Source of the DNA: an uncultured Pseudomonadota bacterium
Lineage (GTDB): Bacteria; Pseudomonadota; Alphaproteobacteria; RF32; CAG-239
Reading direction: 5' to 3'
Length of the DNA stretch: 45,612 nucleotides
NCBI GenBank assembly: GCA_949290295.1
Contig: CASERH010000016.1
Location: 1 to 45,612 of the forward strand
Notes under the pieces: model-generated
Seen by the model: only the letters and a program-made list of their open reading frames with translations
Told to the model about the DNA's origin: nothing
Databases searched by the model: none
In this document: positions 41,529-45,505 of the stretch, piece after piece
Layout: each line of letters opens with the position of its first letter
Numbering within the stretch: the stretch's first letter is position 1
Made by a program: the position numbers and the translations under genes

Positions 41529-42185
41529 ATGCTGATAAGTATTGTCGTCCATTTTGTGCCAATAATCTTAGCCATCGTTTTGCATGAACTGGCTCACGGA
41601 TATGCGGCATACCTTTGCGGCGACAATACGGCAAAAGCAAATAAGCGCTTGTCATTAAACCCACTAAGACATGTGGATTTGTTCGGAACTCTAATAGTGC
41701 CCACTCTTCTAATCTTAGCCAAGACCGGCTTTGTTTTTGGGTGGGCCAAGCCGGTTCCCGTCAACTACAATAATTTGCGCAATCAAAAAAGAGACATCAT
41801 CATTGTTGCCTCTGCCGGAATTTTAATGAATTTGGCTTTGGCATTTGTATCTGCAATTTTGCTAAAATTGGCTCCCTATATTGGTCATATGCTCACCCAA
41901 GGGATAGTAACACTTTTTCTGCTCAATATGGTTATTTACAATGTTGTATTAGCGGTATTCAACGCTCTTCCCCTGCCTCCGTTGGATGGATCCAAAATCC
42001 TTCTTGGTTGGTCAGAAAATGAAAAGATTCAGCGTTTTCTAGACGCCAACAGAGAAGGAACAATGTTTATTATTTTGGTGGCATTCATCATTCCGCTGGG
42101 GGCAAGATATTTAGGCTATGACTTCAACCCGTTTGGTTACTACATGATAAAAGCCTCACAAGCTCTAATCGGACTTTTCATCTAA
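41529..42185 (+). CDS. Site-2-protease-type (M50) membrane metalloprotease
   Basis: M50 enzymes cut proteins within the membrane. The 218-aa protein has about five membrane segments, the zinc-binding HELAH motif (HExxH) in the first, and the third zinc ligand in the LPPLDGSKIL segment. It is a minimal type with no PDZ domain. It starts 1 bp after the SPOR gene (TAAGATG) and ends 11 bp before nagZ, so it is embedded in that operon. Its substrate is unknown; regulated proteolysis of a neighbouring envelope protein is conceivable. Confidence 0.9.
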   Translation: MLISIVVHFVPIILAIVLHELAHGYAAYLCGDNTAKANKRLSLNPLRHVDLFGTLIVPTLLILAKTGFVFGWAKPVPVNYNNLRNQKRDIIIVASAGILMNLALAFVSAILLKLAPYIGHMLTQGIVTLFLLNMVIYNVVLAVFNALPLPPLDGSKILLGWSENEKIQRFLDANREGTMFIILVAFIIPLGARYLGYDFNPFGYYMIKASQALIGLFI

Positions 42186-42196
42186 AGGAGGAAGGA

Positions 42197-43267
42197 ATGA
42201 GCAAAGAAATAATGCCGGCCATTCTATCCTGCTCGGGTTATGAGCTGACAGATGAAGAAAAAAACTTCTTTAGCCGAACCAATCCTCTTGGAATAAACAT
42301 TTTCGGTCGCAACATAAAAAATAAAGACCAATTAAAAAAGCTGATAAAAGAGATGAAAGAGGTTATCGGCAGAGAAGATGTTTTGATAGCGATAGACCAA
42401 GAAGGCGGGCGAGTTCGGAGATTACGGGAGCCGGAATTTGAAAGCTATGCGGCTGCCATAGATATTGGCCGCCTCCCCTTGCCAGAGGCGAAAGAAACTG
42501 CCAAATTGCACGCAAAGCTGATTGCGGAAGATTTAAGAGAATTAGGAATAAATGTTGACTATACCCCGGTGCTGGATTTGGTTTATGAAGATACAACGAG
42601 TGCGCTTAAAAGCAGATGCTTCAGCTCAGATGAGAAGATAGTAGCTGAGTTGGGCAAAGAGGAAGTAGATGCTTTCATCGGTTGCGGCATACTCCCCTGC
42701 ATCAAGCACATGCCGGGCCATGGCCGCACCCAAACGGATCCGCATTTAGGCTTGCCGATATTAGATCAAAATTTGGAAGAATTACAAAAAGATTTTTACC
42801 CTTTCAAGCAATTAAAAGATTGCCCATTAGGTATGACAGCGCATATTGTTTTAAGTGCGGTAGATGATAAATTGCCCATCACTCAAAGCAAAAAAGGGAT
42901 AGAAGAAATTATCAGAAAAGAGATTGGCTTTGAAGGCTTTTTGATTTCAGATGCCATAGACATGAAAGCACTGAAAGGCAGTGCCGGAGAAAAAGCGGCA
43001 AAAGCGCTTTCAGCCGGCTGTGATAGTGTCTGCTATGCTTTGGGAGATTTGGCAGAGATGGAAGAAATAGCAGCCTCTGTGCCGCCAATGTCGGATAAAT
43101 CACTAGAAAGATTTGCCAAAGCCGTAAAAATGATTCATAATAACAATTATTATAACAAGAATAGGCAAGAAGATATTTCCCGCTATAAGAAATTAATCGG
43201 AAATATTTCGCCCTACCAAGAAAATTACGATGCAACCGAAGTTCTAAATCGCTTGCAACAAAAATAA
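42197..43267 (+). CDS. nagZ: Beta-N-acetylhexosaminidase
   Basis: NagZ removes GlcNAc from anhydromuropeptides during cytoplasmic cell-wall recycling. The 356-aa GH3 protein has LIAIDQEGGRVRRL near residue 64, the KHMPGHGRTQTDPH loop (170-183, carrying the catalytic His) and the nucleophile Asp252 in FLISDAIDMKAL. The AAAGGAGGAAGG ribosome binding site is very strong. It is third in the SPOR-M50-nagZ unit, and a small membrane-protein gene follows after 24 bp. Confidence 0.95.
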   Translation: MSKEIMPAILSCSGYELTDEEKNFFSRTNPLGINIFGRNIKNKDQLKKLIKEMKEVIGREDVLIAIDQEGGRVRRLREPEFESYAAAIDIGRLPLPEAKETAKLHAKLIAEDLRELGINVDYTPVLDLVYEDTTSALKSRCFSSDEKIVAELGKEEVDAFIGCGILPCIKHMPGHGRTQTDPHLGLPILDQNLEELQKDFYPFKQLKDCPLGMTAHIVLSAVDDKLPITQSKKGIEEIIRKEIGFEGFLISDAIDMKALKGSAGEKAAKALSAGCDSVCYALGDLAEMEEIAASVPPMSDKSLERFAKAVKMIHNNNYYNKNRQEDISRYKKLIGNISPYQENYDATEVLNRLQQK

Positions 43268-43291
43268 AACAACGAACAAAGGAGAAAACAG

Positions 43292-43468
43292 ATGTTAACA
43301 TGGATTTTAATTGCTATTATTGTAGCAGCCCTCTTTGGAGTTATCAATTTTGATCAAATTCGCGAATGGCTGATAAAGATGTGGAAGCAATACTCACCTG
43401 AGGCCAAAAAACTTCTCAAACAAGCAAAAGAGAAAATTGAAGAACAAAGAAATAAGAAAAAAGACTAA
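43292..43468 (+). CDS. Small single-pass membrane protein, 58 aa
   Basis: This short gene codes for an N-terminal membrane helix (MLTWILIAIIVAALFGVINF) and a charged helical tail (WLIKMWKQYSPEAKKLL ... EEQRNKKKD). AAAGGAG lies 8 nt before ATG 43292 and a terminator follows the stop, so it is the last gene of the nagZ unit. The layout (short hydrophobic helix ending in LFG, then an amphipathic tail) recalls TatA, which lies downstream of nagZ in many alphaproteobacteria. The usual TatA FGxxKLPELG motif is absent, so I do not assign that function. Confidence 0.7.
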   Translation: MLTWILIAIIVAALFGVINFDQIREWLIKMWKQYSPEAKKLLKQAKEKIEEQRNKKKD

Positions 43469-43471
43469 CCC

Positions 43472-43497
43472 AAAACCCCGCCGCAAAGCGGGGTTTT
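43472..43497 (+). terminator. Terminator of the nagZ unit
   Basis: AAAACCCCGC and GCGGGGTTTT form a 10-bp stem with a 6-nt loop, 3 bp after the stop of the 58-aa gene. Confidence 0.88.
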
Positions 43498-43678
43498 AAT
43501 TATGAAAAACAATCTCTGCACCTTTCCTGATATGGGCGATATTTTTTGTCCAAACAATTCTCTTTGCCTTCGGCCTCGGTTTTATAAATTATTTATTGCC
43601 AAACCGTTCAATATCTGCTATAAAGCCCCTGTCATTAAGCTATATATTCAATTATTCTAACTTAAAAATCATAGAATT

Positions 43679-44839
43679 ATGGAAAAGCAAGTCAACGCTA
43701 CTTCAGAAGTTCACGATGAAAGAGAGTTTGACCTCAACGGTTTTTGCCGAAACGGAAGCAGGTATAATGCTGAGGGTTACGACCAAAGAGGCTTCAGACG
43801 AAACGGCATCCACCGTAATGGCACTCCATACGACGCTGAAGGCTACGACCAAAACGGCTTCGACCGTAATGGCATTCACCGTAATAGAACCCGATATGAT
43901 GATGAAGGCTATGACCGAGAGGGTTACAACTCTTTTGGTTACGATCGGAGTGGATACGACCGTGATGGTTTCGACCCTAGTGGTTACAATTGTGAGGGCT
44001 ACGACCGAAGAGGGTTCAACCGAAAAGGCCTCCACCGTAATAGAACTTGGCGTGACGACGAAGGCTTCGACTGTAAGGGGTTTGATTGCGAAGGCTACGA
44101 TCGTGAGGGGTTTAACCGTGATGGATACGATCGAGAAGGTTACGATCGAGAAGGCTTCGACCGCTGGGAGCGTGACCGAAGAGGTTTCAGCCTTTTTGGT
44201 AATTATCGTCACAGAACGCCATACGACAATGAAGGTTACGACAAGAGAAGCTTCGACAGTAAGGGCATCCACCGGAACGGAACGCCATACGACGATGAAG
44301 GTTACGACCGGAGGGGTTACGACCGTGAGGGGTACGACCGCAATGGTTTCGATCGTAAAGGATATGACCGTGATGGTTACGATCGAAGAGGTTTCAACCG
44401 AGAAGGCACCCACCGTAACGGAACTCGGCGTGATGCTGAAGGTTACGACCAGAGAGGCTTCGACAGTAAAGGCATCCATCGTAACGGAACCCGGCGTGAT
44501 GCTGAAGGTTACGACCAGAGAGGCTTCAGCTGGGCTGGTATCCATCGCAACGGAACTCGGCGTGATGCTGAAGGCTACGACTGGAAAGGATTCGACCAAG
44601 AAGGCATTCACCGGAATGAAACCCCGTATGATGATGAAGGATACGACCGAGAAGGCTACGACCGTGAGGGGTATGACCCTTGGGGACGCGACCATGAAGG
44701 CTACGATCGTGAGGGCTTCGACAATAACGGCTACGACCGAGAAGGTTTTGACCGGAGAGGCTACGACCGAGAAGGTTTTGACCGCAGAGGCATCCATTAT
44801 CTGCTTGCCAGCCGTAAACCTGACAGCTCTAAAAACTGA
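43679..44839 (+). CDS. Gly-Tyr/Phe-Asp pentad repeat protein, 386 aa
   Basis: Apart from about 15 residues at each end, the protein is built of five-residue units G-(Y/F)-(D/N)-x-x, most often GYDRE, GFDRN or GYDRD. About ten times the run is broken by a variant module of the type GIHRNGTPYDDEGYD. The result is a charge-balanced (Asp/Glu against Arg/Lys), aromatic-rich, Cys-poor sequence with no signal peptide or membrane segment. Differences between repeats lie largely at third codon positions (GGT/GGC, TAC/TAT, GAC/GAT, CGA/CGT), which shows that this frame is the translated one. No ribosome binding site is seen. The function is unknown; a regular solenoid or a condensate-forming chain are both possible. 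Confidence 0.75.
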   Translation: MEKQVNATSEVHDEREFDLNGFCRNGSRYNAEGYDQRGFRRNGIHRNGTPYDAEGYDQNGFDRNGIHRNRTRYDDEGYDREGYNSFGYDRSGYDRDGFDPSGYNCEGYDRRGFNRKGLHRNRTWRDDEGFDCKGFDCEGYDREGFNRDGYDREGYDREGFDRWERDRRGFSLFGNYRHRTPYDNEGYDKRSFDSKGIHRNGTPYDDEGYDRRGYDREGYDRNGFDRKGYDRDGYDRRGFNREGTHRNGTRRDAEGYDQRGFDSKGIHRNGTRRDAEGYDQRGFSWAGIHRNGTRRDAEGYDWKGFDQEGIHRNETPYDDEGYDREGYDREGYDPWGRDHEGYDREGFDNNGYDREGFDRRGYDREGFDRRGIHYLLASRKPDSSKN

Positions 44840-44879
44840 TAACAGAAACTCCCGCATAAAACGCGGGAGTTTCTGTTAT
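44839..44879. terminator. Long 17-bp hairpin after the pentad-repeat gene
   Basis: ATAACAGAAACTCCCGC (44839-44855) and GCGGGAGTTTCTGTTAT (44863-44879) pair perfectly around a 7-nt loop. The left arm begins at the last base of the stop codon. The GC-rich core followed by TTTCTGTTAT fits an intrinsic terminator, though the arms are unusually long. Confidence 0.7.
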
Positions 44880-44984
44880 AGCAAACCCCACACCAATCAA
44901 TTTCATCCCACAGTTTTCGCCTCAAACGCCCCTTCCCCACAGTTCATCCGCCCCATACGACAACTAAAATAATCCACTAATTCC

Positions 44985-45013
44985 TTGATTTTATAAAACT
45001 ATCATGTTATATT
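44985..45013 (+). promoter_or_regulatory. Extended -10 promoter for the 146-aa gene
   Basis: TTGATT (44985-44990) and TATATT (45008-45013) are 17 bp apart, with TGT directly before the -10. Transcription would start near 45020, about 45 nt before ATG 45065. Confidence 0.65.
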
Positions 45014-45064: not shown

Positions 45065-45505
45065 ATGAACATCAGCGCAACCAGAAAAGTTGGCAGTTCA
45101 ACCTCGGCCTCTAGGACCGAGCGAAATTATGCTGCCGGACATCCGAACTCACAATTTGTAGAAAACATTGATACCAGAAACAATGTGCTGGTTCGTGACG
45201 ACACGGACGGTCACAGCAATAAAAACTCTTACAACGCCCAAAAAGAAGAAACGGAGAAAAACACAGAAATATCCCCCTCCGTTGCCTATGTCAAAAACAG
45301 CATTGAGGCACTGGCTGTCAGCGGTGTTTTTGATGAAAAAGAAGATGAAGAGCAAGACAAGAAACACGCCAAAAGCAAAGTTGGCGTTTACGATAACAAC
45401 CAATCAATCATCCGCGATGAGGAATTAGAGCGCACGGGCCGCAACTACCTAAAACATTTTTACGAAAAGAACGAACACCTTGTTGATGTAGATGAACTAA
45501 TTTAG
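45065..45505 (+). CDS. Hypothetical hydrophilic protein, 146 aa
   Basis: I do not recognise it. The first 75 residues are Ser/Asn/Thr-rich and look disordered. A weakly hydrophobic stretch follows (VAYVKNSIEALAVSGVF), then a highly charged segment (DEKEDEEQDKKHAKSK) and a helical end (YLKHFYEKNEHLVDVDELI). GGAG lies 7 nt before ATG 45065 and a good promoter stands upstream, so it is very likely expressed. It has its own promoter and is separated from the pentad-repeat gene by a terminator. Confidence 0.65.
   Translation: MNISATRKVGSSTSASRTERNYAAGHPNSQFVENIDTRNNVLVRDDTDGHSNKNSYNAQKEETEKNTEISPSVAYVKNSIEALAVSGVFDEKEDEEQDKKHAKSKVGVYDNNQSIIRDEELERTGRNYLKHFYEKNEHLVDVDELI

Follow-up and report, generated by a model that had tools for sequence, protein, structure and literature searches.

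A stand-alone G(Y/F)Dxx repeat protein in an uncultured alphaproteobacterium: selection, spread and a possible turn-based scaffold

Introduction

What can a bacterium do with a protein built of five-residue units, each opening with glycine, an aromatic residue and, usually, aspartate? The question is raised by a window of 45,612 nucleotides (the whole stretch of DNA analysed here, contig CASERH010000016.1 of assembly GCA_949290295.1) from an uncultured alphaproteobacterium, in which a first-pass annotation had noticed a long array of G(Y/F)Dxx pentads interrupted by periodic breaks. Our analysis indicates that the repeat is widespread and common to domains of life rather than unique to the window locus. 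We tentatively read the window protein as a cytosolic stand-alone member of this unnamed repeat, which may fold into a turn-based rod serving as a multivalent scaffold, and we would put this reading somewhat short of an even chance.

Results and Discussion

The gene and its array

Features of the locus are collected in Table 1. The repeat gene stands alone between two terminator-like hairpins, and a short tatA-like ORF sits between the nagZ-like gene and the upstream hairpin. The candidate promoter is absent from our consensus scan, which demands that the second hexamer end in T; it is kept in the ortholog of a related genome, G015, as TTGTCA-17-TATAAA. No Shine-Dalgarno sequence is visible at the repeat gene, in contrast to its neighbours. 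Where relatives lack the repeat gene, the gene of the downstream 146-aa protein adjoins the small upstream ORF; this protein looks core to the genus.

Table 1. Features of the repeat locus, in window coordinates unless given as residues (aa).
Feature	Position	Strand	Basis or remark
Upstream neighbour, glycosyl hydrolase family 3 (GH3, nagZ-like)	42197..43267	+	In 35/35 genus genomes searched
Segment missing from sister genome G033 (about 72 bp there, empty site)	43469..45007	.	blastn and reading of the junction
Stem-loop, terminator-like, between small upstream ORF and repeat gene	43470..43499	.	Hairpin scan
Candidate promoter, TTGCCA-17 nt-TATAAA	43596..43624	+	Read from sequence
Repeat-protein gene, stand-alone, 386 aa	43679..44839	+	ATG..TGA ORF and translation
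First canonical break, HRNGTPYDAE	43811..43840	+	Pattern count; coordinates derived from aa positions
Other seven canonical breaks	start aa 67, 119, 198, 245, 267, 289, 311	+	Pattern count
66-bp (22-aa, 5+5+5+7) tandem unit, 4.5 copies: GYDQRGFDSKGIHRNGTRRDAE	44371..44664	+	Tandem Repeats Finder; sequence
Stem-loop, terminator-like, 19 bp, directly after repeat-gene stop codon	44839..44879	.	Hairpin scan
Downstream neighbour, 146-aa protein, no known family, MNISATRKVGSS...	45065..45505	+	Pfam/NCBIfam searches

The array runs from about residue 17 to 375 of the window protein, in which we recognised no other domain; our own reading of the sequence found no apparent signal peptide or membrane segment. 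Strict G[YF][DN]xxG pentads number 38, whereas 2000 shuffles of the residues gave 0.3 on average and never more than 3. This bears out the original description of a protein made almost wholly of such units. Successive glycines are spaced by 5 residues (n = 48), 7 (n = 6), 12, that is 5 + 7 (n = 4), or 10 (n = 2). Position 1 of the 48 pentads is always Gly, position 2 is Tyr in 25 and Phe in 17, position 3 is Asp in 34, His in 5 and Asn in 5, position 4 is Arg in 31, and position 5 is Glu in 15, Asn in 11, Arg in 8 and Lys in 5. With Gly every five residues, followed by Tyr or Phe and then Asp or Asn, the protein belongs to the G[YF][DN]xx family as we define it here.

The pentads are interrupted by ten breaks of seven residues, each shifting the register by two, and the annotation's estimate of about ten breaks of the type HRNGTxYDxEGYD thus stands. 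Eight are canonical by a count of the pattern HR(N/H)xTx(Y/R)DxE, conforming to the family's break GxH(R/K)x(T)GTx(Y)Dxx with its two-residue shift, while two diverged ones, RNGSRYNAE (aa 24-32) and HRTPYDNE (near aa 178-185), were read by eye. Position 2 of the pentad that precedes GxH is occupied by Phe in 6 of 6 cases, compared with 7 of 32 elsewhere.

Selection on the reading frame

Two further frames are open across the array, 43596-44972 (+) and 43703-44857 (-), because its codons are repetitive. We compared the gene with its G015 ortholog (L002), to which it is 87% identical over 381 aligned codons without an indel, using the NG86 method. The frame 43679-44839 gives dN/dS of 0.062/0.227, or about 0.27, whereas dN exceeds dS in both the +1 frame and the long antisense (-0) frame, and coding in these was rejected. 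None of the 48 pentad Gly codons has a replacement, and they carry 8 synonymous changes; of the 7 changes at position 2, 5 exchange Tyr and Phe; position 3 has 2 changes, and positions 4 and 5 together have 13. The repeat frame is therefore under purifying selection, and this distribution of changes means that the protein pattern itself is selected. Selection for the protein sequence had been suggested earlier from synonymous differences between repeats; indeed third codon positions differ between repeats, with Gly codons differing only there, in 69% of unit pairs. Frame-breaking changes in a close relative would have spoken against the gene, and the comparison with G015 revealed none.

Could the array nevertheless be selfish or fortuitous, the product of slippage on a short repeat that happens to be open in three frames and does little? 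The two additional frames and the 22-aa units, which look recently duplicated, would fit, as would the accessory status of the gene (see below) and its atypical codon usage: TAC makes up 76% and CGA 22%, a usage seen neither in other window genes nor in the genome's ribosomal proteins, and GC content is 52% compared with 44% for the window. High expression can be ruled out as the cause of the C-ending codons, since the same-genome ribosomal proteins use TAT at 73% and CGA at 1%; a foreign origin, or growth of the array from a seed unit, would fit the codon usage. Against a functionless expansion stand the low dN/dS, the untouched Gly codons, the gene's own promoter-like site and terminators, and the fusion of such arrays to real domains elsewhere, and we consider this explanation improbable.

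Comparison with known repeat families

The window protein has no Pfam or NCBIfam match above cut-off and no PADLOC match, and it matches PHROGs only at E 0.01 or weaker. A text search for the repeat strings in 5.39 million open papers returned no relevant one. No Pfam, NCBIfam or PHROGs model describes the G[YF][DN]xx repeat: a short repeat of strict grammar, occurring in bacteria, an archaeon and viral contigs, has neither an entry in these libraries nor a solved relative.

The nearest analogue in form is the classical pentapeptide repeat (PF00805, A(D/N)LXX), whose fold is a right-handed quadrilateral beta-helix. It too has a five-residue period with Asp or Asn next to a large hydrophobic residue, and it too forms long arrays that are often fused to other domains. 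However, in the window array the residue order is reversed and Gly is fixed, G-[YF]-[DN]-x-x, and the small residue that classical repeats place at i-2 is missing (Ala in 1 of 48). With the wrong residue order and core positions, and no Pfam match to PF00805 or its relatives at E<=1, we reject this assignment, as the annotation had done. BLAST matches to annotated pentapeptide genes of Salmonella phage ST104 and Trichormus run antisense to the genes concerned and are therefore due to chance.

Only one repeat model, that of the DotG/IcmE decapeptide (PF25296, NCBIfam NF033900), scores weakly on several relatives, with matches in 7 of 48 for PF25296 and 15 of 48 for NF033900. We set it aside because the relatives reach 20.7-27.1 bits against a PF25296 cut-off of 45 and the window protein gives no match.

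Relatives across phyla

The annotation had proposed a search for other G(Y/F)Dxx arrays, and this yielded dozens of proteins in bacteria and one archaeon, besides arrays in viral contigs and plasmids. With the raw window protein as query no relatives were found among the viral contigs; a degenerate DNA pattern spelling four G[YF][DN]xx units in a row matched 96 stretches there, many, though not all, of them long in-frame arrays and some of them short or chance runs. In the genome contigs the pattern GTxYDxxG[YF][DN]xxG[YF][DN], which includes the break, matched 59 stretches. These come from Clostridium and other Clostridia, Kurthia and Caryophanon (both Bacilli), Sporosarcina, Anaeroplasma, Saccharibacteria, TM6, a Thermotogae MAG, Chloroflexi, Phycisphaerae, Treponema, the archaeon Nitrosopumilus and the two sister alphaproteobacteria. 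A few of the matches (L116, L122, L124) are not arrays. Matches in Sigmofec virus and an Acinetobacter phage were rejected as lysine- or histidine-rich translations antisense to annotated genes, and one in Enterococcus as a translation of the same kind inside a gene annotated as pilin-related. Within Pseudomonadota the repeat is rare, with 3 of 299 genomes positive at E<=1e-10, the window's own included. Plasmids of Gordonia and Euzebya and the pel loci of Fusobacterium and Cetobacterium bear related arrays as well. Since relatives were recognised by the pattern itself, common descent and convergence are not fully separable.

The hypothetical repeat proteins of Kurthia, Caryophanon, Clostridium, Fusobacterium, Gordonia, Euzebya and viral contigs have the same pentad as the window protein, and the Bacilli and Clostridia relatives also have its break and its Phe before GxH. 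Differences exist: relatives often bear an extra domain, many have the break HRxTGTxYD, which is one residue longer, and the Gordonia array has no break. Over 2149 pentads of relatives the Gly-Gly spacing is most often 5, then 7 and 6. Phe occupies the pentad before GxH in 140 of 153 cases, compared with 411 of 1479 elsewhere (Fisher p ~6e-56), and 42 of the 43 proteins, which come from many phyla, show the enrichment.

These data also bear on the suggestion that the array binds metal. If it did so, for instance with calcium, the pentad Asp and an acidic position 5 would serve as ion ligands in the manner of RTX or TSP3 repeats, and the presence of Asp at position 3 in 34 of 48 pentads, of Glu or Asp at position 5 in 18 of 48, and of His in the breaks is compatible with this. 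RTX nonapeptides and other Gly/Asp calcium repeats are likewise tandem turns rich in these two residues. Yet position 5 is Asn, Arg or Lys in 24 of 48, and in relatives position 3 is Asp in 50% and Asn in 36% of pentads. This interchange leads us to favour turn capping over metal binding. Judged by its sequence the array also seems distinct from the RTX motif GGxGxDxUx, having a period of five rather than nine, no GG or GGxGxD motif, tolerance of Asn for Asp and no Pfam match; no RTX, EF-hand or dockerin model matches, and there is no export signal, though calcium arrays usually work exported. The metal-binding part of the original proposal is poorly supported, and we regard it as very improbable.

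Structure models and proposed fold

AlphaFold2 gives the window protein a pLDDT of 86 with a low pTM of 0.42, and gives a stand-alone paralog of 154 aa encoded in G033 at L004:1489-1950 a pLDDT of 92 and a pTM of 0.64, the five models of the latter spanning pLDDT 70 to 92. Neither model contains strands of three residues, only isolated bridges. In the window protein model these link the GF..GxH Phe to the His at i+6 (F39-H45, F61-H67), and the paralog model has equivalent bridges (F16-H22, F33-H39). The Phe-His pairing, deduced from bridge positions in the models, agrees with the coupling seen in sequences; since the alignment is an input to the model, however, these two lines of evidence partly depend on each other. 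Foldseek, which may handle repeats poorly, retrieved nothing from the PDB at E<=10 with either model and no usable match from BFVD. It is known that AlphaFold2 gives confident yet unrealistic solenoids for repeat proteins (PMC11795689), and for this reason the fold proposed below is hypothetical. The novel solenoid first suggested is plausible, but it draws on AlphaFold2, which over-predicts such folds (PMC11795689).

How might an array of this kind fold? We propose that the chain makes a tight turn at every pentad G-[YF]-[DN]-x-x, with the Gly at a positive-phi position and the Asp or Asn capping the turn. The aromatic residues would pack into a ladder while positions 4 and 5, mostly Arg, Glu and Asn, would face solvent. 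The break unit F..GxHRNGTxYDxE would then act as a register-shifting corner at which the preceding Phe pairs with the His at i+6. Stacked turns would produce an elongated rod whose charged, Arg/Glu-patterned face could bind partners in many copies, so that the rod would serve as scaffold or spacer; in other proteins the module carries enzymes or nucleic-acid-linked domains. The strict register in relatives, the Phe-His bridges of both models, the selection on grammar positions and the fusions to other domains speak for such a rod. Against it speak the low pTM of the full protein, the spread of the paralog models, the accessory status of the gene and a composition that also fits disorder.

That last point leads to the main rival, in which the protein is an intrinsically disordered low-complexity chain with Tyr/Phe and Arg as stickers and Gly/Asp as spacers, forming condensates that concentrate partners. 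The composition appears compatible with this class (Arg 64, Gly 61, Asp 57, Tyr 34, Glu 31 and Phe 22 of 386 residues; 61 aromatics; 74 Arg and Lys versus 88 Asp and Glu), and AlphaFold2 confidence cannot be trusted for repeats (PMC11795689). However, the exact five-residue phase, the fixed seven-residue breaks and the Phe before GxH across phyla exceed what multivalent disorder needs, and the phase-defining Gly is wholly spared by mutations. The coupling of Phe to GxH in particular supports a folded rod, since a disordered chain that only has to be sticky could do without it. We therefore judge the disordered condensate former unlikely, and the folded rod remains our preferred reading.

Taking this reading further, G[YF][DN]xx may be a distinct, undescribed repeat fold, a Gly-Asx-turn rod with an aromatic ladder and Phe-His corners, used as a general modular scaffold in bacteria, archaea and viruses; we think this possible, if on balance doubtful. 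If true, it would take a place beside the pentapeptide, ankyrin or TPR arrays as one overlooked by family libraries, and if the repeat folds as proposed it would add a new repeat architecture among scaffolds and a simple building block for protein design. The Phe-before-GxH rule makes the proposed structure directly testable by mutation, and the 154-aa paralog is small enough for direct structure solution.

Accessory status, transfer and fused domains

Matches to the repeat protein occur in 6 of 152 genomes of the family, all six in one genus, and at the window locus the gene is found in 3 species. The nagZ gene of the sister genome G033 is 92% identical to that of the window, yet its site is empty (Table 1). 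The repeat gene is accessory, and this presence in three species at the locus implies that the host, a gut-type bacterium for which the gene is optional, can do without it. Other places hold shorter paralogs, likewise stand-alone: beside rplT in G015 and G033, and also in G001. In a further genome, G016 (L003), identity to window positions 42179-44138 is 68-90% over most of nagZ. Within the last part of that gene, near 43080-43180, it steps up to 98-100% and stays there through the repeat gene. Such a step suggests recent homologous transfer between species, or a chimeric MAG contig.

Arrays in relatives are fused to a variety of domains: a UvrD/HelD-like helicase in Anaeroplasma, the C-terminal domain of RNA polymerase alpha (RpoA-CTD; L140), DnaJ (L170), Pkinase/STK_OB (L117), an amidoligase (viral contig L055), DUF4145 (above cut-off in L159, slightly below in L169) and, slightly below cut-off, a PcrA/UvrD-tudor-like end (L155), besides several unnamed domains. 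Occurring beside so many different domains, the array travels as a module.

Does it then spread between species by helping in conflicts, as a mobile-element, phage-interaction or defence-related protein? Related arrays do occur in viral contigs and, next to transfer genes, on plasmids of Gordonia; the fusions to STK_OB kinase, DUF4145 and UvrD domains and the identity step, if it reflects recent transfer of the segment, would be in line with such a role. But no defence genes were recognised among the scanned neighbours of the window gene, the PADLOC search was negative for its product, and many fusions have no link to conflict. A role in conflict seems to us improbable.

Some relatives have contexts of their own. 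Unnamed C-terminal domains are common to proteins of Clostridia and Saccharibacteria (L150, L160, L161, L166-L168, L142, L147, L152, L158), with motifs such as 'ICDKTVR..V..Y.KGE' and no Pfam match where scanned. Three proteins (L134, L144, L149) combine an N-terminal hydrophobic segment, the array and a domain with 'TTHARERLAERL' that is DUF4258-like by eye; L134 and L149 gave no Pfam match at E<=0.01. The Gordonia plasmids (L011, L222) encode the array protein in a transfer-type cluster, adjoining a gene for a TraM-recognition domain and a peptidoglycan-acting enzyme, and in L011 hydrophobic segments follow the array. One viral contig (L029) has four tandem paralogs that have in common a conserved N-terminal domain (about 330 aa) and differ in the length of the G(Y/F)Dxx arrays at their ends. 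Arrays also occur at the pel exopolysaccharide loci of Fusobacterium vincentii (L012), in one frame with pelG-like sequence, and of Cetobacterium somerae (L014), overlapping the end of pelG and the gene that follows; both lie behind a lipoprotein-like Cys (LLGGCAS, LFLSGCTN), and a link to Pel secretion is possible.
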